From Aphrocallistes beatrix (lineage: Eukaryota > Porifera > Hexactinellida > Sceptrulophora > Aphrocallistidae), in NCBI GenBank assembly GCA_963281255.1, contig OY725490.1:682001-746000 (forward strand): 64,000 nucleotides of DNA, given 5' to 3'. A program made the position numbers and the translations under genes. Shown here in pieces: positions 26,801 through 61,645 of the stretch (the first letter of the stretch is position 1; each line of letters starts with the position of its first letter). The notes under the pieces were generated by a model. That model did not search any database, was not told the origin of the DNA, and saw nothing but the letters and a program-made list of their open reading frames with translations.

Positions 26801-29800
26801 ATGACTTGGAAGCTTGTTGTATTATTTATATTTTTAAAGATAAATATTCTAATTTATTGTAAGTTTTGCTTAATTTTTGATACTTTATTGAGAGTTCATC
26901 TTGTTTACTTTGATTTTGTAATTTGTAAACATCAATTGTTTACTAAATAGAGAAATAAACTGCATATTGACACCTTGCTTTAAACGAGCATATTTCTCCA
27001 TAATTCTCTTTCTAGAAGTGATTCAATTGACTATCCCTCTTGATTCAATTGACGAACGTATAGATCAATAATTAATTCTAAAACTGTATTTTTTCAATGT
27101 ACTCACGTTTATTAGTGTAGGAATCCAGGCGATTTTTCGATCACTTAGTTTAGAATGAATATCAGATGGAAAACCATAAAACCAACTTATTGACTTCAAA
27201 ATACAAATACTACAACCAAATTATCAGATAACTCAATTATTCTATTACAATTAAAAACAGGATAATATATTTCTTTATTCAGAAATTTAATTGACTAAGC
27301 TGGATAATAATTAATTGACAAACTTGGCATTATTCAACTGAATTGGAAAATTTATCGCCCGAATATGACAGTTTGTAAACATTTTAAGAAAGAAACTATT
27401 ATAAAAATACTGTAGAACAAGAAAATAATAGAAACGAGAAATTTGCTATACATACATGTCAATATTAATTGATCTGCAATTAACTCTAACTCTCTAAGCA
27501 AATTCTCTGCACCTCATTAGAATGTCAACTAACTGACTAACTATTCAAATTTTAGGATTTTCAGCACAATTAAGATGTATCTTAACAGTAACTAGGGACT
27601 ATAAATTGAGGAATGTACAGAATTACAGTTATTATGACTGTGGTAATTAGTTTTAGAGTAAGCAAATGTGATTATTAACGATTTCAAGTTGTTAAAATAC
27701 TGCATTTGATTGGAATCAATCTTTAAAACCATTCTAATGCAGATATTCTCAAATCTCTGCTATTGTAAGTCTTTCCACTCAAATTCAATATATTTCAAGT
27801 TTTAATCGGATTAAACAAAGAAACCATCCAAAACGCCACTCTTACTGGCAGCTATATCGATCGATTCCATTTTGCTTTGTAATTCTTCCTTCTCTGCCAC
27901 TAAACCTCAGATCAAGATCACACAAAATCACACATCTGATATCTACTTCCAGATTTTTAAATTCCAGAATTTATAAGTCTTTGGAAGTTATTAGCTGAGT
28001 TTAAGAGAATACACTAAGTTGATATCTCAAGTGTCAGTAGTGTAGTTAGAATCTATCTTTGATTATATCTTCAAATGTGTCATTGTAATGATTCCGAATT
28101 TCTATGAAGTTTCGGGAAAAATTTAAGTAATTCTGGCCTATGCGTAATATCGTGATGCAACACTTTAATTTATGTTTCTATCAATGAAATATGTTATATC
28201 ATAGGCACTTCAACAAAAATGTCATTTAAGTAAAGGGCATTGAAAGATTCAAATAAATCTCCTTAAAATCTATTCAGAATTGTCACAGAAATATTCTGTT
28301 CAATTAGAACAATACACTCATCATAGTACTGTGTGTTGAACTAGAGATTGAGTTTATAGTGGGAGTCGTTTTGTTTTTTCCAATTGATTTAATTGCCTAG
28401 ACGACAGGAGAAAATAGTGAAAAACCCCTCGATTATTTTGTAATGGAGTTTCTACTACTAATGAAACAATGTTTACAGGGACCTAGCAATTAAAATGATG
28501 AGCAATGGGCAACAATTTCGACTACAGTCGACTCTGCTTAATAGGGTCACTGTTTAATCAGGTCAACCGCTTAATCGGGTCCCTTTTGGCAGGACCGGAA
28601 TAGCTCTCACACATAGGAGCTAATACAAAATATTTTCGGTTAATAGGGTTCTCCGCTTAACCGGGGCAAAATGTACTCTGACCGATGTGACCCTATTGAG
28701 CGAAGTCGACTCTGTATATTTATTATCATTCTAATATCAGTACTGAACAGCTAGAACTAGAACATATACACTAATGCTAGAATGTTGACAGAATAATATA
28801 ATGACCAATTGAATACAAGCTTAAAACCCTCCAATGACCATGGATTTTGCTAACTCATTCCGATTAACTCATTTTGGGCGGGAAACCGTAGAAATGTGTT
28901 GTCCAAACTATAAATAGAAAAACCATGTCAACCGAATTTAAAATGATTCCCACCTCCAATAGGCAACCAGCTGTACTTCACTCCTGATCACCCACTATGC
29001 GCTGGTGAGATTGTACGAATGGTGTGTCTGGTTATTGTTCCTCCATCTTCTCCATTCAATGGAGTATTCGATGCAGCGCAAATATCCTTCAATGGCTCTG
29101 ACTCAACATTCCCAACAACACTCTACTTGCTACCAGAGGTGGACACCAGCAGATACACCGGTGGTACTAAAGGGTTAAATATAACTATCGATCGACCTGG
29201 GGCATTTCTAGACATCTCGTATCTGCCTATTGATAGCACCATTACGTTTGGATGCCACGCTTTTCTGGATAATGTCATGCCGACTGAAGCTCTAGTCACA
29301 GGGAAGATAGTGGCACCAGCAAGTAAGTTTGTATGATGGCTTAGGTTACCAATTACAGTCAGGGTCGCTTATTGTGAACCACCAGAGAACCAAAAATCTG
29401 CTCATAATATAGATACTTCATATTAAGCGAAATCGATTCAATACAAATCCCATCTGAAAAATGAAATTGGGACCAGGAGGTTAGTTCATAATAAACGAAT
29501 GTTCATAATAAGCGACCCTGACTGTATGACTTAAGTTACCAATAAATGTGGTAAGTATACAGTAGATAGGACAGGATTGTACAGTATACTAGGCAGAATA
29601 TCCTCGAATAGTACCCGTAATGATACTAATTTTAGCCTTATTTGATATTTGATACAAGTTATACGGTATATTGGAAGTAAGTGAGTTTGTAATTATAATA
29701 ATGTTCCAGAGAATTTGATTAATGAAAACTTACAATTTGCTATAAAATATCGCTCTAAGAGGTAACAAAATTTAGGTATACAAATTATAATATATACCTA

Positions 29801-32799
29801 AAAGATTCTATGAAAAACTCCCAAAATCACTTCAATTTATCAAAGTAGGTTTGTCATATAATCAATATTAGATCAAAGTCAGTGACTTATTATCATTTAA
29901 ATAATTTATATTAAAATTGTAATACATTTAAACAGAACATACTTTTAGATGTACAATCTGCATATGAGAGAGTAACGTCAGTTCTTTTCTTTGCTAAATT
30001 TAACCTGATTATTCCTATAGTTCATCCAGGCACACCTGAACCACAAATATCTCTGTCAAGCCTAGAAGCTGACACGTGCAGCCATGCAGTGGTGGAATGG
30101 GATTCAGTGGAGAGTGATAGAGAAGTGGACTACTACTTGTACAGGAATGGCCTCTACATCTCACAGATAGACTCAGTTAGCACGAGATACATCGACACTA
30201 CTCAACTACTGCTAAGCACAGATTACCAGTACTCAGTTGTAGCAGCTAACTGTGCTGGAAACTCTTCAATGGGATACTCCAGTGTGATTCATATCGGTGG
30301 TAGGTTGTGTTACTATATCAGGACCGTATCCATCGGTCCGGTTTTAAACTGACCACTTTTGATCAATTTAGCCTCAAAAGGGACCATTTTGTATAATCAA
30401 CCTGACCACTTTTTATTCTCAACCGGACCACTTCACACCTTGTGACTACGGTCTTGTATATATACTCGAATAGTAACCAGGAGTTTGCTAATTTTTAGCT
30501 TCATTGACCACCTGAAATAATTATTATTTCAGAATTAGGAAAGTTTTCAATGAATATTACCGAATGAGTGAATCAAGAAATAGCAGAAGGGAAGAATATA
30601 CCGTTAGATATTTTTCATGACAGGCACAAACAAGAATTCAGTTATCAGGGCATACCTAATTTACGGGACGGGATGCCGTCCCGTCCGGTAAATTAGGCAT
30701 GCCCAGTAATCCCTTTGGGAGGCGATTATTCGAGTATATTCAGTATATGTTTCTTTTAGTTTATTTTTGTTGTTAATTATTTATTTATAGCTTATGCAAT
30801 TGCAAACGAGTCAGTACAGCTTAAGTATGAACATCAGGAAGAGATCTTAAGAATCAATTGGGTACGTAAACACCTTAAACTGAAACTATTACTACAGTGC
30901 TATAGAACATCCACCACGACATTATTTCTGAATTAAAGCAGAAATAAACTAGATTATTCATGAATATAAACGTGCTAGTCTAAACTAACTCTTTCTGTAG
31001 GCTCTCTCTAACACAGTAGAGTCCACTCCTAGTCTAACACTAACCTATTCTCTCCAAATCAACTCAACCTACACACAATCAAACGGATTCGAAATTCTAG
31101 AAGAGAACACTATCATTTTCTCTCAGATCTCTACCAAAACCTATCTCGAGATGAAGATATCAGCTCCAGTCCTTGAGTCAGTACAGAACTCTGCTCCCAG
31201 CAAAATAGAGGCAAATATAAGAATTGTAGGACAATGCGGACAATTTAAAGGTACATACATAGTACATAAATACATGCATACATTCTAACCGCAGACGAAA
31301 ATGCCGATTCATCATGGAATTATGACGTCATTGTCACCTTTTTATAATTAAAAATTTCCGTTTTTCGACTATACCTCATTTTAAGTGATAGAAGGCTGAA
31401 ATTTTAATAAAATGTGTATACAGTACACCCTCGCTAATCCGAACCTCGCTAGTCCGAACCCTCGCTAATCCGAACACTTCATTCTTACAATCCGAACACC
31501 CAAAATATAATATTATCCGCCTCTATGCTTTGAATCAACGTTTATAACATTATATCTTTCATGATTCAGAAACCTCGTTAAAAAAAGAATTATAGCAAGA
31601 TCTTATTCTTAATATTCTAACAATACAAATTTATTATAGTTAATACCCCATTGAATTAGTGTTATTTCACTGATCGGAACAAATTCACCAATCCGAACGA
31701 TTTTTTCGATCATTGGCATAGAGCTGTTCGGATTAGCGAGGGTGTACTGTATTGATATATTTCATATATGATACAACTATCATCAGAAAATAATGACTTA
31801 TCATTCTGTTATTACGTCTCATTACGAATCAAACATTGATATATTGACATATTTTGTGATTTTTCGAGTGATATTGATTATAACAGTGAGACAGAGGTAT
31901 TTAGAGATGTTATCTACCTTATAATTAATCACGGCGGCTATAAAGTGTCCGCAAGCCGCGCAGCGCAAGCAAGCGAAGCGCGTTTGTACATGATAATTAT
32001 AGATGTGTGTTTACTTAGATCAACAATACTTCGCTACAACAACAACCACAACAACAACTATTACTCCTTTTAGTTCGAAAGGTGTCAATAGTATTTTCAC
32101 AACAAAACCACCTGTCAAAGGTTCTAATTCAGGTATATCAAATATGTTCATATGAGTAATAATTCATTTATTTACACACCTTGATTCATTTATTTTTACA
32201 TCAAAACTCCGAAAGTTACATGGTGATCGAATATAATCGTTATTTTAGCTGTAAGGACGCTCCATTTATCTTCACTAAAATATCTTCCTATTAGTTCCTA
32301 TATCAGTGGATGCATATGATATAATTTTGCACCACAGGATAATTACAAAAGCTTCACAAAATGTAGAATAAGTGTACACTAAATCCTCTCTAATTGTCCA
32401 CCATTGGGTAATGGGATCCTAAGTAGACAATTTTTAGAACCCTGGATAATTAGAGAATTCGAAGTGTGTGTGCACATAGTACTCTTATTCTGGCAGGTGG
32501 AATAATTGAGAACCTGGACAATTACAGAAGTGGACAATTAGAGAGGACTGACTGTAGTAGGTAGACACAGAATATCGAAGTCTATTAATCTACAGTATGT
32601 GGCGTGTCCTCCCAAAGTATTCCGACCCCATTAACATACTTCAGTGATAGCGACCAAAACGTAATGACTCACAACTCTTCTGCAACTAATTGCTAGATTA
32701 TGATGTGTTATTCTTCTAGGTAACTCTGTGGCGTCATCTACAACACTGCTGTTCGCCTTATTATTGGCTCTAGGCGTCATTCACACTGTTTTATATTGA
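26801..32799 (+). CDS. Ig - FN3 - FN3 surface protein with Thr-rich stalk and GPI-type C-terminus, about 403 aa (predicted, 7 exons)
   Basis: Exons were assembled from splice sites and paralogy: 26801-26858, 28963-29322, 30021-30299, 30791-30861, 31001-31250, 32019-32132, 32720-32799. Every junction is in phase (1,1,1,0,1,1). Exon 1 (MTWKLVVLFIFLKINILIY, GTAAGT donor) is a plausible signal peptide but the least certain part. Exon 2 is Ig-like: VRMVCLVIV is the B-strand Cys and IDSTITFGCHAFL the F-strand Cys. Exon 3 is an FN3 domain (AVVEWDSVE..DYYLYRNGLYI..DYQYSVVAANC). Exons 4+5 form a second FN3, split after the conserved Trp (EEILRINW). Exon 6 is a Thr run (ATTTTTTTTITPF), probably O-glycosylated. 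Exon 7 ends in SSTTLLFALLLALGVIHTVLY with no following charged residue, which is typical of a GPI-anchor signal. It is a one-module relative of the four-module gene at 45978-61645. Confidence 0.65.
28525..28714. repeat. pogo-like MITE, CAGTCGACTC ends
   Basis: The ends CAGTCGACTCTGCTTAATAG and GCGAAGTCGACTCTG are flanked by TA on both sides. It lies in the first intron of the Ig/FN3/GPI gene. Confidence 0.75.
29356..29524. repeat. MITE with CAGTCAGGGTCGCTTATT ends
   Basis: Near-perfect terminal inverted repeats (CAGTCAGGGTCGCTTATT and GCGACCCTGACTG) flanked by TA. It lies in the intron after the Ig-like exon. Same family as 6003-6187. Confidence 0.8.
30648..30704. repeat. Minimal GGGCATGCC-family hairpin MITE
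   Basis: A 57-bp element, almost wholly two inverted arms (GGGCATACCTAATTTACGG and its inverse). The flanks AGTTATCA and AGTAATCC look like a worn target duplication. It is intronic. Confidence 0.7.
31290..31987 (+). repeat. Helitron-like repeat with a nested CAGTACACCCTCGC MITE
   Basis: The host repeat runs from CAGACGAAAATGCCGATTC through GACGTCATTGTCACC to the GCGCAGCGCAAGCAAGCG tail. It is split at 31421-31749 by a pogo-like MITE whose ends are CAGTACACCCTCGCTAATCC and its inverse, inserted at TA. The sequence on either side joins as in intact copies (for example 44690-44830). It lies in the intron before the Thr-rich stalk exon. Confidence 0.75.
32373..32553. repeat. MITE with CCTCTCTAATTGTCCAC inverted ends
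   Basis: TAAATCCTCTCTAATTGTCC at the left and GGACAATTAGAGAGGACTGA at the right are inverted copies. It lies in the last intron of the Ig/FN3/GPI gene. Confidence 0.65.
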
Positions 32800-35059: not shown

Positions 35060-35096
35060 GCTGAGAAACTCAAAGTGAGTCATTTCTTATTCAAGC

Positions 35097-39099: not shown

Positions 39100-39135
39100 C
39101 TCCGAGGAACCTAACTCAAATAATCCAATATAAGC

Positions 39136-44567: not shown

Positions 44568-45279
44568 GTAACGAATTGATTGAAGAAACTGCCAGGCATA
44601 GAAGGCTAATTTTTGGCATGTGGGAGTCTTTTGGCTATGGCTCCAGTAAGTTCTGAGCTCAGAGCAAAATGTCGACTCATCATGGAATTATGACGTCATT
44701 GTCACATTTTAAAAAGTTAAGCAACACAGTTAGAGCATAACTCAGCCATTATAGGAGATATAAGGCTGAAATTTTAATAGAATATGTATACTAACATACC
44801 TCACATATGATGCAACTAAAAAATGATGACTCATCACTTTGTTATGACGTCATCATTACGCATCTAAAATTTTAAATTTGACAAAGTTGGTGATTTTTCG
44901 AGTGATATCGATTTTACAACTAAGATGGACATATTTAGAGATGATATCTCCCTTATAATTAACCAATGTCACCTCCAGGCGACCGAAGGGAGCCTCCGGC
45001 GGACACGAAGTGTCCGCCAGCCGCGCAGCGCAAGCAAGCGAAGCGCGCTTGTATTCAATAAAATGCATTGATTTACACATTATATGATTTTGAAAAAGCA
45101 CTTTCAAGAATACAATAACATGTGCTAATGCTAAACAATGCACTTCATTGAGTAGACAAAATGGAACAAATTTGTTATTACTTAGTAAATATTAATCAAG
45201 TGGCTATAATTTCTCGCACCCCCCAGAATCGTCTCTCACACCCCCAGGGGGTGCGTGCACTCCCGGTTGAGAACCACTG
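44392..45279. repeat. hAT-type element split by a Helitron-like repeat
   Basis: The outer ends are CAGTGTTTCTTAACC and GGTTGAGAACCACTG with the exact 8-bp duplication TACTAGAG (44384-44391 and 45280-45287). Within it, from TCCTTACTATTAAAACTCG (about 44497) to GCGCGCTTG (45052), lies a full-length Helitron-like repeat including a TA microsatellite (about 44528-44564). It is bounded by A on the left and T on the right, so the Helitron-like copy is younger than the hAT copy. Confidence 0.85.
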
Positions 45280-45749: not shown

Positions 45750-45977
45750 CTTCGTATCGGTGGTAGTATCACTCAATGGTTTAGCATCTATATGCAAGTG
45801 CTGAATTGGTGCTGATTTGTCTACAATCTTTATACGGTAAATGAGTTGTAGCAAAGTTTTCAAATTCTTAGAGTCCGTATAAAAGAATCAATTGCAGCAT
45901 GAAAGTCATCAATTTAAAAAAGTCACAATATTTTATATGATCCATTAACAATATTATTTTTGAAAATGTTGTTAATA
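45750..45977 (+). promoter_or_regulatory. Promoter and leader of the four-module receptor gene
   Basis: The TATA box TATAAAAG is at 45878-45885, in CCGTATAAAAGAATC. It precedes ATTGCAGCATG, whose ATG opens a 13-codon upstream frame that closes before the signal-peptide start at 45978. The same sequence, including the upstream ATG, recurs at 63690-64000, which supports a functional promoter duplicated with a paralogue. Confidence 0.6.
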
Positions 45978-48900
45978 ATGGACAAATTGTTTCCAATTTT
46001 TTATATTTTTGTCATACATACTTGGATTTTATTATTCTGCATACAATATGCAGTACTAACTGCTTCAGGTATTTTGACTTCATTTAACAATGAATTACAG
46101 TGAATTTGGATATATCATTCAACAAAATTACTGGGTTTTATTAAGTTTAAAAATCTTACAGTGATGTGGACAATCATTGGATAGATTCGACGCTCATGGT
46201 TGTTCAAACACAGGAAGAATGGGATTTGTTATAATATTAAAACTTAATTTTAAGTAGACATAGCAGTTTGAAACCATAGAATGGCCAAGCTTAAGAGAAA
46301 AATATAGTAAGATCCTAGCAGGAGCATAATCGTGTCTATTTTTAAAAATTTTGACTAATTCAGCATTAAAATAAATAATTTATAACCAATGTTTTAATTC
46401 ACTTTTTGCTTTAAATTTATTAAGTTCGATCATCAAAATGTTAGGGAATTGAAAATATTAATTTTGAGTTCCTATCCTTACATTTACAGGTGCCCAAATA
46501 CAACAATTTCCAGAATATGCGTGTCCCGGAGAAAGAATTGACGTTATCTGCAACTTGACTGTTCCTCATCTCATTTTCACTCAGTTTAGTAATCCTCAAT
46601 CTGATCAATTCATTGTTGGTAATCTAAATAATTTGGTCCTACAAACGGATTTTGGTTCAAACCAAGAAAGTGGTGGCATTAACCTGAAACGCTTATCTGC
46701 AACTTCGGATTCAGTTTCACAGACAAACTTTATCGGAAACATCTCTCTTCTCAACTTCACTCTCTCTGATTCTGGATTATTCCTAGGGTGTACTCGGCTC
46801 TATTATGAAGTTGCTGATATTGAGTACCCTATAACAGAGGCAGTAAACATTCAATCTGTCGGTACGTTCTTTACTTTACAGATTAACAAGGCAATTCGGT
46901 TAACTAATAGTGTTAAAGTACGTGTATCATGCATCAATCTTCGATAAGATCTAACATTATGAACTATAGCATTTTAGAGGTAGAAGATTCTAATTTAAAA
47001 AAATATCGGTCGACAGACCGATAGTGCAGCTCCAGGAAGTGATTCAAAGGAACATGAATTGTGAATACCGGAATACATCGGAAAATATTCATTTTAGGAC
47101 ATTCTAAGTGTGAAATTTGGAAACTAAGTATTAAAATATTCGATAATAGCCGTTGAGAACCCGCTTTTAGCTCAAACTAAAATAATTTTCAATAGGTGTA
47201 AAATATGAATTTATAAAAATTTAATAGTTCATTAAATATTCGCATTATTTCCTTCAAAGTGTGAAAATCTAAATCTACATATTCAAATATCCTATATTTG
47301 TAGTTGAGAGCTAGCGAGCTTAGGACCTAAGTCTTTGTTTTCAAATGTCCTCACCACCGCACCACCCAAGCAGATAAATGAGATCACATCTGTTTGTCTA
47401 ACGACAGCTATTGTTGAAGTATCTTTTCTGTTGCATTTGTGCATTTGAATTTAGTTGCTCCAGCTCCTGTTTGAGTACAAATTCTTCAATCACGGAACTT
47501 AACTCTACAACCTGCATGAGTAGAGTAAATGTAACCCGGAGGATTACGGAAAGTACGGGATCCGAAGCTGCAACTAGTCATATCATATACTTGGATGGGA
47601 TTGAAGTTAACAGAATCGATGTTGCAGAGAGTTTTATTCAGGATAGAGAGATCCTACTCGATACGGACTATACATACTCTGCATCTGCTACTAACTGCAA
47701 CAGCACATCTTCTCGAGTTGCTGCACTTGCATTGAGGATTTCAAGTGAGTTCAGAAATATAATATATACGTACAAGCGCGCTTCGCTTGCTTGCGCTGCG
47801 CGGCTTGCAGACACTGCGGGTGTGTCCGCAGATTTACACAGTGGGCGTTTGGGGATATTAGAGAAACAATACGTCGCTTTCTTGTTTTATACTAAATACG
47901 CTGGATTGTCATTTGTCTGCGGGTACATTAATGAAATCAGAACTGGAGCAGAAATTTTGTTTCGTGATAAATATAATTTACTTCGTATTAAGTCAACTAA
48001 TCCTAAATGTAAGATCAATTTGAATACACAAAGTTCACATTGCTAAAGATTATTATACTTAAATAATCAACTCCAGTCCATGTCGTTAAAAGTTATTTTA
48101 TGATTGAATTGATTGATCGTAGCATATAACACACTTTAATTGTTGTTAACTCACATAAACCAATGAATTTCAATAACAAATAGTTCTTTTGATTGTATAC
48201 ATAAGTCACTACTATTTTATTCCAATGTATTTGCATTATAAAATAATCCAATTTGATTGGTCAGCATATTTGTCACCTATCTCGGCGAGGTGTGAAAATT
48301 TCGCTTAGATTTTCGAACTTAATCCTAGATTCATCATTTGACACCTGCCTCTAGAAATTATGGATACTGGGCAGTGTTTTATTATTTTATTATTTTTCGA
48401 ATATTTTCGAGATAATCTATAATATATGTGGTTCAAAATAATCAAATCATTGAATGAACAAGTGAAAATAGGGAAAATGAAACTTTTGAATTAGCAAACT
48501 CAATATTAATATTGGCAAGTTGTGCAAAATCAAAAGTAGACTATAATTTGGATGATAAACTTTCCTGACGACAGCGAAATTTTTGACAAGTATGGATGGC
48601 AGACAATGATATACTTTGCCTAATATCCCAAATACAACTGCATGAATCTTTGCTATTCATTAGACCATTTGTAATGTTTGAAGATAATTTTTATCTTTGC
48701 TATAGGTCATAGAATTACTAGCTCTTTCATCAGAATCGACTACAATCAATTAAATAATGAAGCAATTATTAAATGGGTTAGTTTCTTCAATTTCTAAGCA
48801 ATTTCTCAATCGGTAATGTAGATTATTTCCTTATAATTTGTAATTAGGAAAATAGCATGGAAATGATTCCAACACTTCTTCTCATTGATTACTCCCTCAA

Positions 48901-51900
48901 AGTCAACTATACCTACACTCGAGATAGTATTACGCAGTCATTCTATGAAGATTCTATGCTCAGTCTCATGTCTGATGTAGAAATCCACACAATTCAACTA
49001 ACACCTCACTACTTCTTAACGAACAGTGGAGTTTCTGTTGAGATAACACTGAGCTTGAAAGTAGTACAGCAGTGTGGGCAATCAGTGGATGGATTAGTCG
49101 TTCCTGGTTCTCTAAACACAGGTAGAAATGGAATGTATTTTAATATTTAAACTTGACACTAAACTACTAATAACAGTTTGAAACCGTAATTGTCTAAACT
49201 TATAGAAGAATATTATATAGACCCAGGTAGTAACTTATGTGGATTTTTGCGAAATTTTGTCAAGTTTATTATAGACAATAATTCTTGTGATATTCATCAA
49301 AGTTGTCGTCTTCTATTAAATTTATTAAGCCATCAAAACGCCACTAAATTGAAAATATTAGTTCTGACTTCTTATTCCTACATTTATAGGTGTCCTGATA
49401 CAACAATTTCCAGAATACGCTTGTCCTGGAGACAGAGTTGACATTATATGTAACTTTGCTGTCCCTAATGCTTCTATTTATACGTTTGATGGCAATCAGA
49501 ATCTTTTCATTGTTGGTAGTCGGGGAAATTTAGTCCTGCAAACGGTGATTGGTTCAAACCAGGAAAGTGGTGGCATCAACCTACAACGCTTGTCTGCAAC
49601 TTCGGATCCAGTTTCCCAAACAGAATTTATCGGAAACATCTCTCTTCTCGAATTCACTGCCTCTGATTCTGGATTACTTCTAGGATGTACTCGACTTTAT
49701 ACAGAAACAGGTTCTACGAAAGCTGGAAATATATCTGCAGCAGTGAATATTCAATATATCGGTATGTTATTTGTCATCCAAACTGTGCAGGAAATTTGCT
49801 CAAATAATAACGTTCAAGTATCACATGTCCATCTTCTACAATATTGAACATTTTGAACTATATCACCTTATAAGTGAAGGATTATTTTATAGATATCCTG
49901 AGACTTCTTAATAGTTGTGAAATTCTTATATATTAAAACGCTGGGATTTTTGTTTGTTTGTTTGCTTGTCCGAATTGAAAAAAGAATTGGCAAGTCATAG
50001 AGATATAAAAATTGGCATGTAGGTGTCAAATGATATGACTATGATTAAGTTCTAAGATCTAAGCGAAATTTTCATACCTCTACAAAAGAAAATGGAAAAA
50101 AAATTTCACACCTTTTCTATACTAAATATATGATTACACTATAACAATGGAAATCATTGTACGACACTACAATATATTGTAATTGTTATTAAAATACTTG
50201 TCCTTCAAAGCCACAACTTAAGTTTGATAACCTAAATGTATTAGAGTGTATAGCAATAAAAAAGATTATGTGCATATTTTCCCACCATTTGACGGATTTT
50301 GAAAAATATACTAGAGACTAGCTTCCACGGTTGATATGGGGTATTTAGGCGTGTAGATATTATATTTTCAGTTCGATATGATAAATTAATTGTTTAATTT
50401 TGTTTACATTAGATACACAAAGTAAACAAATTACAAAAGTAAGCTAGAGACTAGCTTCCAACGGTTGACATGGGGTTTTTAGGGATGTAGATTCTAAATA
50501 CATGTAGTAAATTTTCAGGTCGATATGAACAATTATTCGTTAAATTTTGTTTACAATATTTACATAAAGTAAAAAATTCCCAAATAGGTTAGATTGAGTA
50601 ACTCCAGTCGCCCGCAGTGCGACTCTGCGGATACGCAGTGTCTGCAAACCGCGTAGCACAAGCAAGCGAGCGTGCTTGTCTCTAATAAAATAGGAACCAA
50701 AAATAATGACTTGGACTATCTCCTCATGAACCATTTGTTTCGCTAATATGAATCTGGGCACAAAATTTTCATTCGAATAACCAACTAATTATTTGTTTGC
50801 AAATTTATACCAAATGTTTTAATTATTTGTAGAGTTAACTGCACATTTTCCCGATTTTGGCAATAATTAAGACTAAATATCTAACAATGGATCATAGTAA
50901 CTGTTTCATTTGGACATCATTCCACTACCTATTCGGAGTTAGCAGGGCCGGCGGAACTGATCCGGCTGGCCCGGCTTTGGCCAGACCAATTTTATGCCAT
51001 TATGGCTTATTTTCATATGCAAATTTGCTTTTGGCCGGAGCAACTTTCGCTTTGGACGGACCAATAAAAAGTTGCTTCCGCCGGGCCTGGTTAGGATCAC
51101 ATTTGTTTGTCTAATGACTGTAATTGCAATTGAGTTAACACTCATCTATTTTTTCATTTCTACATTTGAATTTTAGTTGCTCCAGTTGCTGTTTTGAGTG
51201 CAACTTCCTCAATCACGCAGCTTAACTCTACAACCTGTATGAGTACAGTGGATGTATCTTGGATAGATATTTCTACTTTGACAGACTCAGCTCCGACAAG
51301 TCATATTATATACCTGGATCGAATGGAGATTGACAGAATTGACGTTCCAACTACTACTTTTCACGATAGAAGGATCGTATACCTGGATACGGACTATGAA
51401 TATGCTATATTTGCTGCTAACTGTAGAGACAGATCTTCCGAATTTATACCAAATAGATTAAGGATTTCAAGTGAGTTGTGAGTTATAGTCGAAAAACTGA
51501 AATTTCTAATTATAAAAAGGTGACAATGACGTCATATTTTCATGATGAGTCGATATTTTGGTCTGTTCTCCGAACTTACTGGAGCCATAGCCAAAAGACT
51601 CCCACATGCCAAAAATCAGATTTCCATGCCCGTCAGTTTCTTCAATCAATTCGTTACAGATATATACAGTCGAACCTGCTATAACGGCCACTCTATATAA
51701 CGGTCACTTGTCTATAGCGATCACCAATGAACAGTCCCTTCCAAAGTTCCATAGTATTGAACCTGTGTATAGCGATCACCAGCTCAACGCGGCTAGCGGC
51801 CACCCGTTTGTAGTCCCTTACTGATCCTAAAACTGTGTATAACGGCCACTACCTGTCTATAACGGCCATCACCCTTTTCACCTCTTTATGTGTTTATTGG

Positions 51901-54900
51901 GAACCGGACACTTCCCCCCCGGACACTTCCCCCCCGTTAATGAATAACACTAAATCGCGGACATTTCCCCCCCAAAGTGTTGACATTGATCTATGTTGAT
52001 TATTAACAGTTAATAGAATCCACTGAAATTTGTGGTGTTAACAATAACAATGCTGCGATCCTTTCATTTCATCCAAATATTTGGACTTTTCTTAAGGTCT
52101 TGAAGAAGGAGGAAGCGTTAAAGAGGTTGCAGCTCCTCCTCAAAAAATACGTTACCGCGAATGTAGTAGCAGAATACAAGCAATTGTTAAGGACTATGAC
52201 AATAGAAATACCCTTAGTTTTCTCAGAGGTATTGCCCATAATTTATCTTTCTGAAATTTCTAGATTATCGTTTGTCGCATAAATTATATTTTAGTTGATC
52301 TATTTATTCTAATACTAATGTTAATCAAATAATTAATACATTATTTATAAAGACAGCTGAATATATAAGCAAATACTAGTAACGGGGGGAAATGTCCTAG
52401 GGGAAGTATCATTCATTAACTGGGGGGAAGTGTCCGGGGGGGAAGTGTCCTAGACCCGTGTTTATTGCAGGACCTGTTACGAACGATAAACAAATTTCAT
52501 GTAATTACTTCAAGTAATGGATTTCTAAAAACTTGATATTTATTGCACTACGTCGATACCTTTTGGGGATTAAGGCAAACACCTGTATATAACAGTCACC
52601 TGTGTATAACGGCAAATTTTGTCTAGTCCCTTGGGTGGCCGTTATATACAGGTTCGACAATATATGTATATATATACGTATATATATATACAGGGTGTTT
52701 CAGCGATTGTATCACGAAAATAATTTGAAATTACTAGGTAAATATTTTACTAATCATCTTCCCCTTTTACGATGTTGTTTAACACCCTCTGAGATTTGTG
52801 TGACAACAAAATGGACAAGCTAGATGACAAACAAAAGAAGATCAAGATGGTGGAATTCTACCATAAAAATCAGTCCTATTCAAGATTACCCCACACTTCT
52901 AAGGTTTACCCTGCCCAAAATGACTAAATCGGAAATGAGTTATCCCACATTAATGATGTTTTGAAATAATTTACTTTTATTCCAACGGTTTGCTTCATTG
53001 TTTTTCATAAATGTCAAAGGATTTCCTTTCAAAAGCAGCCAAAATAACTAAATTATCTCAATCACAAATGAAATGATAGCAAATTACTTTTGTGTGTAAT
53101 CAATGAAACACCCTGTATTAATCGAGTTTTAATAGTAAGGATACAGTGTTGGATATAAAAATTTAGTCAATCAGTAATCATGATCTGCAAATGCACGTTC
53201 ATCACTAAGGTGTACAGTCGTGACACTACGTAGTTAATTTTATTTAGCACATTATCTACGTTTTTAATCTCTATACTGAAAAATGTCATTCATCTACGTT
53301 TAATCATGAATTCCTTGCTGGAGAAGAAAATCAATTTTATGAGAAAAGGAATTTGTTTAATATTGAGCTAACTAATCCTGGATTTAATGTTAATTCGAAT
53401 CTAAGTTCGCATTATAAATATTATTATATTTAAACGACTCAAAAAACTTCAGTCGAGTAACCTTAACAACAATCGAGGTGTGTTATGTGCTAATCAATCA
53501 ATTTGATCATGAAATAACTTTAAATGATTAAAACATAGACTCAAAACAGCCGAATTCAGTCATTTAAGTGAAATAGAATAATGTACGTAAATCGCATCAC
53601 AAAAACATGATAATTGATTGGTTTCTACATGAACCAATAAATTTCAATCACAAATACTCCCTTCGATTGTATGTATTGTAAATGTAAGTCACTATTGTTT
53701 AGATCCCAATGGATTAGTTTTTAAAATAATCAAATTTGATTTGTCAGCACAATTTGTCAACTATCTCAGCGGGGTGTGAAAATTTCGGTTAGATCTTCGA
53801 ATTTAATCGTAGATTCATCATTCGATACATGCTACATGCCAATTTTTATATCTCTACGGCTGCCCAATTCTTCAATCAATTCGGACAAACAAACAGCCTA
53901 GCGTTTTGATATCAGATTTTCAGTAGCTGTCGGGAGTTTAATGAATTGACCTAAATGGAGAGACCTATTTATTATGCAAAGCAATATGGTGTTCCAATAC
54001 TTTTGGCCAGCAGTGTATACGTATATTAAAGAAAGTTTCAAATGGATTGGTGAAAGTAGTCAATATAAAGATATTATTTAATAGTCTCAAGCTCTCGCAG
54101 GGCGACTCTGCGGACAAGAAGTGTTTGCTAGTCGCGCAACGAAAATGCACAAAGAGCACTTATCCCGAATAAAGTGCTAAATTAAAAAACTGTACAAAAT
54201 CTGGATTGAAATATAATATTACGAAAGTATAACTGCATAACTCTCTCTATATACACATTTATGTGTCTGTAAATTTGAAAATATTAAATCTTACTTTTGC
54301 TGCAGGTCATACCATTGACAGCTCCTTCATCTCAATCAACTACAATCAATTAAATAATGAAGCTAACATTGAATGGGTTAGTTTCTTCAATTTATTTTCT
54401 AAGAGTCACATCATAAAATTATTTATTCACAATTTGCAACTTAGAATAATAGCTTGGAGCTGAATCTAGCTCCTCTTCTCATTGATTATTCTCTCAAAGT
54501 CAACTATACCTACACTCGAGAAGATATAGCGCAGTCATTCTCTGAAGATTCTATACTCAGTCTCCTGTCTGATGTAGAAACCCATACAATTCAACTAACA
54601 CCTCACAACTTCTTTACGAGCAGTGGAGTTTCTGTTGAGATAATACTGAGCTTGGAAATAGTACAGCAGTGTGGACAATCAGTGGTTGGATCCGTCGTCC
54701 ATGGTTCTCTGAACACAGGTAGAAATGGAATCTATTTTAATATTAAACTTGACCCTAAAAACGAATAGCAATTTGAAACCGTAGAATGCCTAAACTTTGG
54801 AGAAGAAAATGATCTAGACCCATAAAATAACTTGTGTGTACATTTTGACTAGTTTGTTATACAGAGTATAAGTAATTAGCATGATATTCATCAAAGTTGT

Positions 54901-57900
54901 CGTCTTATATCAAATCTATCGAACTAGGTCATCGAAACGTCCCTGGTTTGAAAACATTTGTATAATATCTTACATTTATAGGTGTCCTGATACAACAATT
55001 TCCAGAATACGCTTGTCCTGGAGACAGAGTTGACATTATATGTAACTTTACTGTCCCTAATGCTTCTATTTATACGTTTGATGACAATCAGAATCTTTTC
55101 ATTGTTGGTAGTCAGGGAAATTTAGTACTGCAAACGGTGATTGGTTCAAACCAGGAAAGTGGTGGAATCAACCTACAACGCTTGTCTGGATCTTCAGTTC
55201 CAATATCCCAAACAGAATTTATCGGAAACATCTCTCTTCTCAATTTCACTTCCTCTCATTCTGGATTACTGCTAGGATGTACTCGAAATTATATTGAAAC
55301 AGGTTCTAACGAAGTTAGAATATTATCTGCAGCAGTAAATGTTCAATCTATCGGTACGTTTTTTGCTTTTCAGACAGTACAAGGAAATTCGCATAAATAA
55401 TAGCGTTCAAGTATCATAAGTCTATCTTCGACAATATTTAACATTTTGATCTATAGCACTTTAGAGGTGAAGGATTCTTTTATAGCATAGATATCCTGAA
55501 CCTTGTTAATACGTAGTTGTGAAATCCCTAATAAAATGGGGAGCAAAATGTTGACATGGATTATCTCCTCAAAAAGCATTTGTTTCGTTCATATGAATCT
55601 GCACACAATATTCTCATTTGAATACACGAATAATTATTTGTGAGATCAATCAGGTGATGTATGCCAATTTACGACAAAATGCTTTTAATATGTAAATTTT
55701 CAATAAATTAGACTAAATATCTAATAATGGCTCAATGTAATTGTTTCATTTGAATAGCATTCCACTCCCTATTCGGAGTTAGGATTACATTTGTTTGTCT
55801 AATAACTGTTATTTCAATTGAATGAGGTCTCTTCTTTTTTTTCATTTCCACATTTGAATTTTAGTTGCTCCAGCTGCTGTTGTGAATGCAACTTCCTCAG
55901 TCACGCAGCTTAACTCTACAACCTGTATGAGTACAGTGGATGTAACTTGGATGGACACTCCAAGTATGCCAGATGCAGTTGCAACTAGTCATATCATATA
56001 CCTGGATGGAAATGAAGTTAATAGAATCGATGCTCCAGACAATTTTGCTCAGAATGCAACGATCCTACTCCTCGATAGGAACTACACATACTCTGTATCT
56101 GCTACTAACTGTAACGGCACAACTTCTAAAGTTACAGCTGACGAATTGAGGATTTCAAGTGAGTTTGCAAATATAACATTTACAGTGTTGGATTTAATAT
56201 ATCATTTTAGTGAATGACCATGGTCTGTAAATGCAAGTCCATCACTAAGTTATGCAGCCATGTTACTAGTTAATTTTACATAGCACATTATCCATGTGTT
56301 TAATCATATATTCGCATCTCAACTACTGTCTGACTGGTACTCTAAGCATTATACCGTATTTTCCGTATTTTATATTTATACCGTATTCTGTTCTTGCTGA
56401 AGGAACGGAGGTATTCTTGTTCTATTATTTTCTAAATAAGGTGCTGTAAATATATCACTTGTTCATCATCCATTTCTTTCTAGAAGTTTGTGATGAGAAG
56501 TGCGTTTCATTTTTATGCATTTTATCGAATACAAGCGCGCTTCGCTTGCTTGCACTGCGCGGCTTGCGGGCACTATGTGTCCGCAGAGTCGCCCTGCGGG
56601 CGCCTGGAGTTACTCAATCTAACCTACTTTGGGATTTTTTTAAATTTATATAAATATTGTATCCAAAATTTAACGAATAATTTTTCAAATGGATCCGAAA
56701 ATAATATTATATGTAATGTACTAAGTCTACACTCCTGAAAACCCCATGTCACCCGTTGTAAGATAGTCTCTAGCCTATTTTTATTTTACACCTATTTTCT
56801 TTGACAGCTACATACCCATTTTCATATCTCTATGACTTGCCAATTCTTCAATCAATTCTGGAAAACACAAAAAAAAATCCTAGCGTTATAATATATAAGA
56901 TTTACAAAACCTTCCATTATAATTTACAAAAATATCAAAAATAGTGAATGTAGGAGTTAAATTGGTTAAGTTGAAAACTTTGAATCACCAAACTTAATAT
57001 CGAAAGTTGTGCATAATAAAAAGTGGGCTACAATATAGAAGATAAATTGTCCAGACGAGAGCAAAGATTCGGGGCGAGTAGGAATTGAGATCAAGCAATT
57101 TATTTAATTAACTTAAGTATATAATTGCATGACTCTCTGTGTATTCATTAATACGTTTGTAGACGTGAAAATAATCCTCATTTTTTAAAAGGTTATAGTA
57201 TTAATCGCAGCTTCATCTCTATCAAATACAATCAACTGAATAATGAAGCAATCATTGAATGGGTTAGTTTCTTTGATGTATTTTCCATGAATGTGCATTA
57301 TAAAAGTATTCCTTTGCGACATGTAACTTAGGTTAATAGCATGGAAATGAATCCAGCACCTCTCCTCATTGATTATTCCCTCAAAGTCAACTATACCTAC
57401 ACTCGAGACAATATAACGCAGTCATTCAATGGAGATTCTATGCTCAGTCTCTTGTCAGATGTAGAAACCCACACAATTCAACTAACACCTCACAACTTCT
57501 CTACGAACAGTGGAGTTTGCATTAAGATAATACTGAGCTTGAAAATGGAACAGCAGTGTGGACAATCAGTAAATGGAATAATTGTCCCTGGTTCTCTGGA
57601 CACAGGTAGAAATGAATCTATTTATGATATAAAACTTAATTTTAAAATATGACAGGTGTTTGAAACCATAGAATGTCCAAACTTTATAGAAGAATATTGA
57701 CAAGTTTCGAGCAGTAACCTATGTGTATCCCTGCGAAATCTTGCCAGTTCAGCAAAATAAATAATTGTCATGGAATGCAATCATCGTTATAATTAGTCGT
57801 CTGCTAACAAATATATTAATTTTATTCAATCAAAACGTCACAGAATTGAAATTTTTTGCTTTGACTTCCTATCCTACATTTATAGGTGTCCTGATACAAC

Positions 57901-60900
57901 AATTTCCAGAATACGCTTGTCCCGGAGACAGAGTTGACATTATTTGCAACTTTACTGTCCCTAATGCTTCTATTTATACGTTTGATGGCAATCAGAATCT
58001 TTTCATTGTTGGTAGTCAGGGAAATTTAGTCCTGCAAACGGTGATTGGTTCAAACCAGGAAAGTGGTCAACCTACAACGCTTGTCTGGATCTTCAGATCA
58101 AATATCCCAAACAGAATATATAAGAAACATCTCTCTTCTCAATTTCACTGCTTCTGATTCTGGATTACTCCTAGGATGTACTCGAGATTATACAGAAACA
58201 GGTTCTAGCGAAGTTAGAAATATATCTGCAGCAGTAAATGTTCTATCTATTGGTATGTTAATTGCTTTTCTTATTTTAGGAAGAAATTTGTTTAAATAAG
58301 TTTTCTCGTATCATAAGTCTATCTTCGATAAGATCTAACATTGTGATCTACATACGAGGATAGTATTTTAGAGCTGAAAGATTATTTCATGGTAAAGTAT
58401 ATTTGTACATTATACTTCACGATTTTAATATATTTACTTAGCTCTGTTGCGTGATATCCTGAGATCGTGATATCTTGAGATCCTAGTATTAAGTAACCAT
58501 GGATGATTTAGTACCGTGATATCTTGAGATCGTAATATTTTGAGATATCGTGAGCATTCTGAGATTTTGTTAGGCTTACTCAAATGGCCTTGTGGTTCAA
58601 TCGGTTTCATTGTGGCACTAAATTGTGGCACATGACAAAATTTGATGGCACGCGACACAATTTACTATGGTAAAACCCATATGGACCATGGATCAATTAT
58701 ATTTTAATAATTTATGGTCCATATGGGTTTTACCATAGTAAATTGTGTCGCGTGCCACTAAATTGTGACGCGTGCCATCAAATTTTGTCATGTGCCACAA
58801 TTTAGTGCCACAATGAAACCGATTGAACCACAAGGCCATTTGAGTAAGCCAAACAAAATCTCAGAATGCTACTATATCTCAAAATATTACGATCTCAAGA
58901 TATCACGGTACTAAATCATCCATGGTTACTTAATACTAGGATCTCAAGATATCACGCAACAGCTCTATGTGTTGGATGTTTGTTCCCAACATGTGTACCA
59001 TAAACCTAATAGAAAAGAGCTACGTATATACAGACATACATATTTGTTGTGCTTCTTATTTCAAACAACTCTGTTTCAGTTATAATTGAGGTTTTAAAAG
59101 GTTCATTTATGTCGCTAATAGCACTTTCTAAAATGAATTTCTGCGATGGTAGCACAGACTAACTTACTAGAAATGTACAATCAGTCTATAAACCAATCAT
59201 TATTTAGAAATTTAAACATTGATTCCAATTCTTCTCCAAATTATTCATTGTATTTATGACGCTGTATCCAATTTGATTTTTTATCAGTAATTACACTGTT
59301 CAGGTTCTTCCCTCACTCCTACGTCATTATCAATATCTAACTCTGTAATAAACCCATCAACTTGTAATGGTGCAGTTACTGTACGCTGGGTAGCTGCTCC
59401 TTCCAATCCTCCGAGCTCACACATCTTGTATCAGAATGGGATAGAGATTGCCACCATTAATTATCCACTAACATCATACACTCACACTACAACGCTACTA
59501 CTCAATACAGAGTACAGTTACTCTGTAGCAGCCACCAACTGCAATGGAACTTCTCTACACTCTCAAAGTGCTCCTACTCTTCCTTCTATTGCAAGTTAGT
59601 CTAGAAAATAATTATGTTTGAGTAGGAATTAGATTAGAATATCACTTGCTTGTACACGCTGCTCATAATAGTTCACGGTCCATAGAAATGCAGAGTTGGA
59701 GCTAAAGACACTTTAATTATTTTTACATATAATCTTGAGACTAGAGGCTCTGGGATCAAAATGATCATGCATCACTCTGTTATGACGTCATCAATACTCA
59801 CCATAAATATTGAGCTCAGACGAAAATGTCTACTCATCATGGAATTATGATGTCATTGTCATACTTTTAATGTTGAGCAATACAGTTATTCGACCATAAT
59901 TCAGCCATTATAGGAAATAGAAGGCTGAAATTTTAAAAGATTATGTATATTAATATATCTCACATATGGTACAACTATCATCAAAAAATAATGGCTCATC
60001 ACCCTGTTATGACGTCATCATTACGCATCAAAATTTTGAAAAATTGACAAATTTGGTGATTTTTCGTGCGATATCGATTATAACAGTGGGACAGCCGTAT
60101 TTAGGGATGTTATCTCCCTCATAATTAATCAATGTGACCCCAGGCTCCCACAGGGCGCCTCCAGCGGACACAAAGTGTCCGCCAGCCGCGCAGCGCAAGC
60201 AAGCGAAGCGCGCTTGAATACATATATATATAGTATAGATTAATCGAGTTTTAATAGTAAGGATATATGTATATATATATATATATACATATATCTGTAA
60301 CGAATTGATTGAAGAAACTGCAAGGTGCAGAAAGCTGATTTTTGGCATGTAGGAGTCTTTTGACTATGGCTCCACCAAGTTCTGAGCTCAGACGAAGATG
60401 TCGACTCATCATGGAATTATAACGTCATTGTCACCTTTTTTATAATTAGAAATTTCAGTTTTTCAACCATAACTCAGCCATCTTCGTGATAGAAGGCTGA
60501 AATTTTAATAGAAGGAGTATATTAATATACCACACATATGATGCAACTATCATCAAATAATGATGACTCATCACTCTATTATGACGTCATCAATACGTAT
60601 CAAAAATTTAAAAATTGACAAATTTGACGATTTTTCGAGTAATATCGATTTCAATAGTAAGACAGACGTATTTAGAGATATTATCTACCTTATAATTAAT
60701 CAATGTGAGCCCAGGCGCCCTCAGGGCGCATCTGGCGAACACAAAGTGTCTGCCAGCCGCGCAGCGCAAGCAAGCGAAGCGAGCTTGTATTTTATTAAAT
60801 CTCCTATTCTCTCGCTCAGGCTACGATGTTACAAGCACTAGTGTCAGTGTTTCTTACAATCAGAGTACCAACATTGCGAATCTCTACTGGGTTAGTTAGT

Positions 60901-61645
60901 CAACTAAACAATACTATACTAGTATGAGTTTATTGCAGACGTATCTCTTCAATAGATTCGATGCATGCAAGTGAGAAGAATATTACAGAGTAAGTGTATC
61001 ATGCAAAGTACAGCACTAAGAATTCTAAAAAATCACTTCCTATTCACCTTAATAATATGTACTAACTTCGAAAGCCATGTTGTCTTCTCTACTGCAAATA
61101 AATGCAGAATAATTAATTTTTCAACAAGAGCGCTTCGCTTGCTTGAATTGCGGCATTTTTTTAGCAGATGCATGAAAATTTTGATTAGATCTTCGAACTT
61201 AGCTGTGAAATGCCCAGCATTTATAGGGCTTCAGTGCCATAGAAAATGGCTGGGAGACATCCGCGATATCAGGGACACTGTGTCCCCTCTGGGCATTCTA
61301 TGGTTAATCTTAGATTCATCATTTGACACCTACATACCAATTTTCGTATCTCTACGACTTGCCAATTCTTCAATCAATTCAGACAAATAAAAAGAAAATC
61401 ATAGCGTTTTATTATATAAGATACACACACATATATTTTAATAGTAAGGATTTTGTAGCATTGAGATGAAGCAGAGAGAAGACGCAACTAATGGAAAGCC
61501 TTCAATCGAGAAAGTAAGTCTCCAGAGATAGACCAATTCTCTCTTGGTAATAAATATACACTATATTTACTTAAGTACATATTAATCCCTTCCACAGGCT
61601 CCTAATGAAGATACTGTCTATGCGAATGTAACAGTTCAGGACTGA
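45978..61645 (+). CDS. Large Ig/FN3 repeat receptor with ITSM-like tail (predicted multi-exon gene, partly damaged)
   Basis: Exon 1 (45978-46068) encodes MDKLFPIFYIFVIHTWILLF.., a signal peptide, with a phase-1 donor. Then come four tandem modules, each of four exons: Ig (a), FN3-1 (b), and FN3-2 split into c (71 nt, ending in TGG then GTTAGT) and d (274 nt). Exons: a 46490-46861, 49390-49761, 54982-55353, 57886-58252; b 47455-47744, 51177-51470, 55865-56158, 59304-59594; c 48706-48776, 54306-54376, 57192-57262, 60820-60890; d 48848-49121, 54445-54718, 57332-57605. Phases are 1-1 for a and b, 1-0 for c, 0-1 for d. Tail exons are 61459-61513 and 61598-61645, the last reading APNEDTVYANVTVQD. 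Exon b1 and exon a4 are out of frame, and d4 and a transmembrane exon were not found. Either those exons are skipped or the gene is decaying. It resembles an animal immune-type cell-surface receptor. Confidence 0.7.
46490..49121 (+). other. Receptor module 1 (Ig, FN3-1, FN3-2) with a damaged FN3-1 exon
   Basis: The Ig exon (46490-46861) has the paired Cys in DVICNLTV and SDSGLFLGCTR. It is the most divergent Ig exon of the four. The FN3-1 exon (47455-47744) is 290 nt, not a multiple of three, because one T is missing near its start relative to modules 2 and 3. Its core Trp is also replaced (VNVTRR for VDVTWM). FN3-2 (48706-48776 + 48848-49121) is intact and contains EAIIKW, LLIDYSLKVNYTYTRD and VVQQCGQSVDG. 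A GCGCTTCGCTTGC repeat fragment lies just behind the damaged exon at 47773. Confidence 0.7.
49924..50680 (+). repeat. Helitron-like repeat in the intron of receptor module 2
   Basis: It starts TCTTATATATTAAAACGCTG followed by GGATTTTTGTTTGTTTG. It carries an internal direct duplication (GAGACTAGCTTCCA, about 50319 and 50448). It ends with a GC-rich hairpin and AGCAAGCGAGCGTGCTTG. The same start (inverted) and tail occur at 56531-56901. Confidence 0.6.
51667..52660. repeat. pogo-like MITE (CAGTCGAACC) with a nested GGGAACCGGACAC element
   Basis: The outer copy matches 41456-41916. At 51899-52457 a different element is inserted. Its ends are GGGAACCGGACACTTCC and GGAAGTGTCCTAGACCC, each with a second copy of the GGACACTTCCCCCCC motif. 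The flanking 9-mers GTGTTTATT (51890-51898, 52458-52466) match exactly and occur once in the undisturbed copy. It is intronic. Confidence 0.85.
52691..53115. repeat. Non-autonomous mariner-type element (CAGGGTGTTTCA ends)
   Basis: CAGGGTGTTTCAGCGATTG and TCAATGAAACACCCTG are inverted and flanked by TA. Inside, a short stretch reads KIKMVEFYHKNQSYSR, which resembles the helix-turn-helix start of a Tc1/mariner-type transposase, so this is probably a deletion derivative. It lies in the intron between FN3-1 and FN3-2 of module 2. Confidence 0.7.
54982..57605 (+). other. Receptor module 3 (Ig, FN3-1, FN3-2), intact exons
   Basis: Ig 54982-55353 (SHSGLLLGCTR) is nearly identical in its first half to modules 2 and 4. 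FN3-1 55865-56158 (VDVTWMDTPSMPDAVATSH, DRNYTYSVSATNC). FN3-2 57192-57262 + 57332-57605 (EAIIEW, LLIDYSLKVNYTYTRD, EQQCGQSVNG). All phases fit. Many NxS/T sites suggest heavy N-glycosylation. Confidence 0.75.
56531..56901 (-). repeat. Helitron-like repeat, minus orientation, in the module 3 intron
   Basis: It reads CAAGCGCGCTTCGCTTGC at the left and ends at the right with the inverse of ATCTTATATATTATAACGCT. It is a shorter version of the copy at 49924-50680. Confidence 0.6.
58446..58960. repeat. Long foldback (near-palindromic) element with 6-bp target duplication AGCTCT
   Basis: A 515-bp inverted repeat whose arms (about 250 bp each) match almost base for base around a centre near 58697. 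Examples: TTGTGGTTCAATCGGTTTC in the left arm and its inverse in the right arm; ATGGTAAAACCCATATGGAC and its inverse near the centre. The ends are GTTGCGTGATATC / GATATCACGCAAC, and AGCTCT flanks both (58440-58445, 58961-58966). Sub-terminal repeats of ATCTTGAGATC occur. No coding frame. It lies in a sense intron and would form a long RNA hairpin. Confidence 0.85.
59810..60216 (+). repeat. Helitron-like repeat copy
   Basis: GACGAAAATGTCTACTCATC through GACGTCATCATTACGCATC to GCGCAGCGCAAGCAAGCG and CGCTTG. The tail has the GGACACAAAGTGTCCGCC hairpin. It abuts a further copy at 60237. Confidence 0.65.
60237..60787 (+). repeat. Helitron-like repeat copy ending 33 bp before a receptor exon
   Basis: It starts in a TATA-rich run after the inverse of TCCTTACTATTAAAACTCG and ends in CAAGCGAAGCGAGCTTG. 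Exon c4 of the receptor begins at 60820, so the element sits directly against the acceptor's polypyrimidine tract. Confidence 0.65.
61129..61421 (-). repeat. Worn Helitron-like repeat where exon d4 and a membrane exon are expected
   Basis: It has the tail GAGCGCTTCGCTTGCTTG at the left and the inverse of ATCTTATATAATAAAACGCT at the right. It lies between exon c4 and the cytoplasmic-tail exon, exactly where the second half of FN3-2 and a transmembrane exon should be. Confidence 0.5.
61459..61645 (+). other. Cytoplasmic-tail exons with ITSM-like motif TVYANV
   Basis: Two short exons, 61459-61513 (IEMKQREDATNGKPSIEK, GTAAGT donor) and 61598-61645 (APNEDTVYANVTVQD then stop), joined in phase 0. 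TVYANV fits TxYxxV, the immunoreceptor tyrosine-based switch motif bound by SH2 proteins in animal immune receptors. The charged, Pro-poor sequence before it suits a juxtamembrane tail. The link to the modules upstream is inferred from position and orientation. Confidence 0.55.

Follow-up and report, generated by a model that had tools for sequence, protein, structure and literature searches.

A 64,000-nucleotide stretch of genomic DNA (the window; positions 682001-746000 of contig C3 in a 100.5-Mb genome of 28 contigs) carries on its plus strand, at window positions 45978..61645, a gene designated W1. An earlier note had described the locus as an intact receptor gene with four tandem Ig-FN3-FN3 modules and a tail resembling an immunoreceptor tyrosine-based switch motif (ITSM). 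The exon modules of W1 are real, but as assembled W1 is not an intact receptor; it is probably one of the degraded copies within a large family of type I membrane receptors that is tandem-duplicated and undergoes birth-and-death evolution. The unit of W1 runs from an Ig exon through a first post-Ig domain (FN3a) to a second domain split over two half-exons (b1 and b2). Each of Ig, FN3a and b1+b2 forms a phase 1-1 unit, GT donors and AG acceptors are present at all 18 predicted internal introns, and direct repeats across the gene comprise Ig four times, FN3a three times and b2 three times. The signal-peptide exon and the matching exon phases reported earlier were borne out, as was the modular layout for three complete units, whereas the fourth is truncated and modules 1 and 4 contain frameshifts. 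A further ATG lies upstream of the signal-peptide exon at 45966. The elements of W1 in window coordinates are as follows.

45978..46068, +: signal-peptide exon (MDKLFPIFYIFVIHTWILLFCIQYAVLTAS) with a GT donor, phase 1; 66% identical to the exon at C3:746030 of the paralogue P1
46135..46215, +: decayed b2 half-exon remnant in intron 1 (tblastn to b2: 44% identity over 27 residues, one stop, E 0.009)
46490..46861, +: Ig exon 1, V-type Ig domain, open
47455..47744, +: FN3a exon 1, broken by a 1-bp deletion with an in-frame TGA (alignment with three homologous exons)
48706..48776, +: b1 half-exon of module 1, first part of the second beta-sandwich domain
48848..49121, +: b2 half-exon of module 1
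49390..49761, +: Ig exon 2, open
51177..51470, +: FN3a exon 2, open
54306..54376, +: b1 half-exon of module 2
54445..54718, +: b2 half-exon of module 2
54982..55353, +: Ig exon 3, open; predicted structure a V-type Ig fold
55865..56158, +: FN3a exon 3, open
57192..57262, +: b1 half-exon of module 3
57332..57605, +: b2 half-exon of module 3; predicted structure a partial beta-sandwich
57886..58252, +: Ig exon 4, broken by a 5-bp deletion near 58066 (frameshift)
59304..59594, +: FN3a exon 4, open; fn3 match at E=0.0042, under the curated cut-off
60820..60890, +: b1 half-exon of module 4, lacking a b2 partner
60956..60989, +: post-transmembrane (juxtamembrane) exon, with homologous exons in P1 and P2
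61459..61513, +: cytoplasmic exon (IEMKQREDATNGKPSIEK), with homologous exons in P1, P2 and P3
61598..61645, +: terminal exon (APNEDTVYANVTVQD followed by a stop), reading EDTVYANV

Paralogues of W1 on the same contig provided the reference for its missing parts. P1 (plus strand, C3:746-754 kb) consists of 13 exons with 12 AG acceptors, 13 GT donors and 792 codons uninterrupted by a stop. It encodes a signal peptide, two Ig-FN3-b modules, a stalk, a transmembrane (TM) segment and a cytoplasmic part ending KSSTKK; a terminal exon of P1 was not found. P2 (minus strand, C3:757.5-760 kb) retains FN3a through the tail, with a signal-peptide remnant and no Ig exon detected. P1 and P2 make up an inverted duplication, the head being present in one copy and the tail in the other. 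Near 898 kb, a further gene, read over 10 kb, carries a single Ig exon along with several FN3 exons upstream of its TM exon, and thus module number differs among family members. Of the family copies, only W1 and P2 were demonstrated to be broken. P1 and P2 are arranged tail to tail, and their FN3a exons are near-identical (nonsynonymous divergence, dN, 0.019; synonymous divergence, dS, 0.054).

Three independent lesions separate W1 from its intact homologues, in addition to the decayed half-exon in intron 1. When all exons are read, the missing base in FN3a exon 1 produces a stop at codon 161 counted from the second ATG. Ig exon 4 is shorter by 5 bp than homologous exons and shifts the frame. 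Between 60896 and 60909, alignment with the paralogues revealed that module 4 of W1 lacks the b2 half-exon together with the stalk and TM exons, the gap between matching stretches being 705 bp in P2 versus 12 bp in W1. The terminal exon of W1 also lacks a 12-bp piece that carries the stop in P2 and P3. The W1 sequence contains no Ns. A whole-genome search with the TM exon returned no match within the window, and no other TM segment with a 19-residue hydropathy ≥1.9 was found on the plus strand between 59594 and 61598. Inspection by hand disclosed no in-phase alternative acceptor by which the 1-bp deletion in FN3a exon 1 might be bypassed.

The consequences for the tail were traced in five exon combinations of W1, two of which place it in frame. 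Both skip FN3a exon 1, Ig exon 4 and either the b1 half-exon of module 4 or the juxtamembrane and cytoplasmic exons. If FN3a exon 1 alone is skipped, a stop falls in Ig exon 4; if Ig exon 4 is omitted as well, the stop falls in the cytoplasmic exon. Removal of FN3a exon 1, Ig exon 4 and the b1 half-exon of module 4 leaves 1085 open codons through to the final stop, and the peak 19-residue hydropathy of this product past residue 45 is 1.66, compared to 3.26 for the TM segment of P1. As there is no TM segment and there are two frameshifts, TVYANV cannot be a cytoplasmic switch motif of W1 as assembled.

The domain assignments were assessed in alignments of family exons. The Ig alignment (A1) holds 27 of the 30 loci L009-L038, leaving out L013 and L016, which are pieces of broken Ig exon 4, and L028, which is close to L026; A2 has 20 rows, with L037:2553-2792 (two stops) and partial or duplicate copies left out; and A3 has 21 rows of selected FN3a matches without the broken FN3a exon 1. 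An AlphaFold model of the Ig exon built on the 27 family members reached a predicted local distance difference test score of 93.8, has the Ig beta-sandwich fold and groups with variable-type Ig domains when compared with solved structures. The Ig cysteine pairs pointed out earlier were confirmed: the B- and F-strand cysteines C21 and C100 occur in at least 90% of the 27 exons, the P3 exon lacking C100. Ig exon 3 contains no tryptophan. Pfam animal Ig models matched none of the 27 Ig exons at E<=1. The Pfam names that these exons did attract were weak and included the bacterial Big_7 (0.084) and Big_3_5 (0.37). On the basis of the structural model, the Ig exons are confidently predicted to encode a V-type Ig fold. 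Ordinary annotation could miss a family whose Ig domain is invisible to the animal Ig models in all 27 exons. A third, invariant cysteine (YAC, position 12 of A1) has no obvious partner within the Ig domain, and b2 half-exons carry a conserved QCGQ cysteine just upstream of the following Ig; an inter-domain disulfide between the two is possible.

Only part of the FN3-FN3 description was upheld. With Pfam fn3, matches at E<=0.1 were obtained for 15 of 21 FN3a exons (the best at 6.3e-6), and the FN3a profile matches titin, Dscam and neogenin. Two W1 exons count against the assignment: FN3a exon 4 scores under the curated cut-off, and FN3a exon 3, taken on its own, gave no match to fn3. Judged by these profile matches, the first post-Ig domain is an FN3 domain. 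The second, split domain has no clear FN3 match. The model of its b2 half-exon is a confident partial beta-sandwich for which Foldseek returned nothing at E<=0.001, and b1+b2 is taken here as an Ig-like beta-sandwich divided over two exons.

The last exon was correctly identified as reading DTVYANV, and the motif recurs within the family. A degenerate DNA pattern for [DE]-T-[VIM]-Y-A-N-[VIM] matched three times in 100.5 Mb, in W1, P2 and P3, and reversed-pattern controls gave no match. All three matches sit in terminal exons of the receptor family of W1, and the match is therefore not due to chance. Each of these C-terminal exons reads TVYANV and so fits TxYxx(V/I). A fourth tail, NTVYANPEN, lies downstream of the 898-kb TM exon. 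Tails were read for a minority of the cluster, and a TVYAN-type tail follows three of seven TM exons (P2, P3 and 898 kb). The ITSM consensus is TxYxxV/I, and pYxN is the consensus of Grb2-type SH2 domains. TVYANV fits both, such that the ITSM reading suggested earlier is uncertain, and NTVYANP, which keeps YxN and loses V, favors the YxN alternative. In W1 itself the motif does not lie behind a TM helix, as the TM exon is missing and the tail is out of frame unless exons are skipped.

An Ig-exon query produced 79 genome matches, two of which are pieces of broken Ig exon 4, leaving 78 places. Two of six further Ig queries added four, for a total of 82 places, a lower bound that counts matches and not working genes. 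Seventy-six of the 82 are on C3 between 518,284 and 1,833,863, a span of 1.32 Mb or 1.3% of the genome; the other six are on C4 (three), C6, C21 and C1. Family members occur in both orientations, with same-strand runs. The whole-genome TM-exon search yielded seven sites, namely P1, P2 and five weaker matches (E up to 0.64). The three C4 Ig exons (C4:2024440-2033053) score the same as three at C3:1686702-1695315 in inverted order; the shared stretch is apparently either a segmental duplication of recent origin or one haplotype represented twice in the assembly. When the assembled 792-residue P1 protein was compared with a protein database, nothing was recovered at E<=0.01 among 7991 candidates scored. 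No description of a sponge Ig-FN3 cluster was found among the literature titles and opening parts of abstracts listed, which is no proof that the cluster is unpublished. The window itself includes another, more divergent family member whose parts are in the right order and on the same strand; its FN3a matches at E 1.7e-14 and the other three parts weakly (E 0.001-0.11).

28983..31264, +: divergent family member, with Ig at 28983-29261, FN3a at 30047-30265, b1 at 30793-30864 and b2 at 31016-31264

Variation in the cluster was approached through database proteins and substitution rates. A search with the Ig profile identified 17 proteins in ENA that resemble it. As 11 of the 17 are 94-100% identical to exons of this genome, these matches say little about other species. 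Eleven ENA Ig exons, on contigs apparently from the same species, were compared with the reference: nine were 98-100% identical, one was 95% identical, and P0007 was at most 83% identical. P0007 is listed on a contig of 417,141, the same size as that given for the 95% exon and two of the 100% exons. Identities were determined genome-wide for P0001, P0004, P0006, P0007, P0010 and P0013, and against the family loci only for P0002, P0003, P0005, P0008 and P0009; P0012 was likewise compared with family loci only (94%), and P0011 and P0014-P0017 were outside the genome-wide search. The single P0007 exon hints at haplotype-specific or strongly divergent alleles in the cluster. Nei-Gojobori dN/dS values were 0.38-0.92 for six Ig pairs (W1 Ig exons 1-3 and the second Ig exon of P1), 0.11-0.80 for 15 b2 pairs and 0.33-1.12 for 15 FN3a pairs, three of the latter being ≥0.9; 21 Ig pairs were computed in all, a set that covers the two pieces of broken Ig exon 4 and contains one undefined value. 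As dN/dS is mostly below 1, the Ig, FN3a and b2 exons appear to be mostly under constraint, and the values make an unconvincing case for diversifying selection.

Other features of the window are distinct from the receptor family. Eight open frames of 288-344 amino acids on both strands occupy positions 2213-24029, at least seven of which we take, from inspection by eye, to encode NHL-repeat (TRIM-NHL-like) proteins. Two closely similar and seemingly intronless plus-strand frames at 35079-36437 and 39124-40428 (452 and 434 amino acids) resemble serine carboxypeptidases, with a GESYAGH motif. A repeated element with the core CCGCGCAGCGCAAGCAAGCGAAGCGCGCTTG is present at 44268-44357, 44975-45064, 60140-60229 and 60711-60800, and inverted near 47770; this element in the introns and flanks of W1 is probably a short mobile element.

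The data are best accommodated if tandem duplication, inversion and loss continually create and break copies in this family, W1 being among the broken ones. Relatives of W1 comprise a signal peptide, at least one module of V-type Ig, FN3 and beta-sandwich domains, a short stalk, one TM helix and a short cytoplasmic tail which in some members ends in the tyrosine motif D/N-T-V-Y-A-N-V/P. Intact members may act as germline-encoded cell-surface receptors whose ectodomain, probably through the V-type Ig domain, would bind a ligand such as the receptor of another cell or a microbe. Where the tail tyrosine is present, its phosphorylation might dock an SH2 protein. Lacking a membrane anchor, and with a tail that is in frame with the modules only when exons are skipped, W1 as assembled cannot signal in this manner. 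The receptor interpretation of the earlier note thus holds at the level of the family, which consists of clustered Ig/FN3 type I receptors, some with a tail tyrosine, but not for W1, which is frameshifted and devoid of a TM segment.

Several observations weigh against this account. The exon joins are predicted from genome sequence alone, and none of the paralogues by itself yielded an assembly that runs from the signal peptide to TVYANV: for P1 a terminal exon was not found, P2 has no detected Ig exon and no good signal peptide, and P3 and the 898-kb gene are unmodeled. In the PDB, the sequence that the Ig profile matches best belongs to a nisin immunity protein of bacteria (5.3e-4), antibody chains following only at E 0.03-0.96, and FN3a also matches other Pfam names, such as RGI_lyase in four of 21 exons (best 2.1e-6). 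No TVYAN exon was found behind four of the seven TM exons (P1 and those at 516, 801 and 1849 kb, the last three read over ~1.5 kb only). The tail exons were found via the motif, with a pattern that demands V, I or M at +3, and their agreement is partly built in. In addition, symmetric phase 1-1 exons would permit a soluble product via skipping and, with one assembly, consensus error could account for a frameshift and another haplotype may be intact.

A different function for the family, which concerns its role and does not compete with the identification of W1 as a broken copy, is a serious possibility that falls a little short of evenly balanced: the proteins may serve adhesion or microbe binding rather than allorecognition, with clustering the product of ordinary tandem duplication. 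Ig and FN3 domains are common among adhesion proteins, and the dN/dS values mostly below 1 are in keeping with such a role. The many copies, parts that come and go, the V-type fold, a tyrosine tail in some members and one strongly divergent exon in another assembly resemble recognition families, yet are still compatible with adhesion. We infer that the family may have an immune or allorecognition role. It is a bolder and rather unlikely proposal that the 1.3-Mb cluster serves as the polymorphic self/non-self recognition complex in an early-branching animal that might be a sponge, with dozens of germline V-type Ig/FN3 receptors, some bearing an SH2-docking tail, that would be convergent with the systems of Hydractinia and Botryllus and from which W1 would be a discarded gene. 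Should the cluster prove to be a recognition complex, self/non-self recognition in an early animal would have a candidate locus that is already mapped and open to testing.

Turning to W1 itself, it is improbable that the gene specifies a soluble decoy or secreted recognition protein from which the broken phase 1-1 exons are skipped. The 1085-codon frame without a TM-like segment is consistent with secretion, and FcoR loci of Botryllus are reported to be alternatively spliced (PMC12065747). However, at least three skips are needed and the skipping is predicted only, and both the half-exon remnant and the disappearance of the original tail stop resemble drift. An effect of assembly or haplotype, with an intact allele in the animal and lesions that are consensus errors or haplotype-specific, is distinctly improbable: haplotypes may differ here in view of the contrast between P0007 and the nine near-identical ENA exons, but a 5-bp deletion and a ~700-bp junction are unlike homopolymer errors and Ns are absent. 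It is very improbable that W1 encodes an unbroken membrane receptor of four modules ending in an ITSM tail, and this reading was rejected, for although exon order, phases and tail motif fit, there are two frameshifts, the TM exon is missing and joining the b1 half-exon of module 4 to the juxtamembrane and cytoplasmic exons runs into a stop. The interpretation of W1 as a degraded family copy is retained. Exon phases that match and the presence of a motif are no proof of a working receptor; what is missing emerges from comparison with the neighboring paralogues.

The cluster shares features with three known receptor systems. The vertebrate SLAM, Siglec and CEACAM receptors bear ITSM tails and are not known to contain FN3 modules. 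A TxYxxV-type tail motif in some W1 paralogues resembles theirs, whereas the motif in W1 is not behind a TM segment and the YxN reading fits as well. The FcoR proteins of Botryllus, as summarized in PMC12065747, are type I proteins of the histocompatibility locus with a variable-type Ig domain, a TM segment and a tail with an immunoreceptor tyrosine-based inhibitory motif (ITIM), a hemi-immunoreceptor tyrosine-based activation motif (hemITAM) or a core Y-x-x-I/L/V. The present family has in common with them the type I arrangement, variable-type Ig, TM and tyrosine tail, but FcoRs have sushi and C2-type Ig domains instead of FN3, and homology is not claimed. The same source places ITIM and immunoreceptor tyrosine-based activation motif (ITAM) sequences on allorecognition candidates of Hydractinia and Botryllus, and reports a lack of conservation among the candidate proteins of sponges, cnidarians and ascidians, with ITAM/ITIM motifs spanning cnidarians to mammals. 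Sponge work on the Ig superfamily (IgSF) has mainly concerned cell adhesion and recognition according to a review (PMC11999971), which also attributes V-set and I-set domains to Hydractinia Alr proteins. No Alr structure was among the matches listed for the Ig model, which is not evidence of absence. The Hydractinia complex is depicted in PMC11067881 as clustered IgSF genes for single-pass membrane proteins with polymorphic ectodomains and low mutual identity, with AlphaFold-based predictions, and counts 19 additional full-length genes along with 44 gene models presumed to be pseudogenes. The repeat unit here differs in combining Ig, FN3 and a split beta-sandwich, as does the single short tyrosine tail of some members. 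Like the Alr system, the present cluster consists of clustered V-type Ig type I membrane receptors accompanied by broken copies, as judged with one neighbor modeled. Compared by description, the cluster that includes W1 appears closest in layout to the Hydractinia allorecognition complex, a likeness at most and not a claim of membership.

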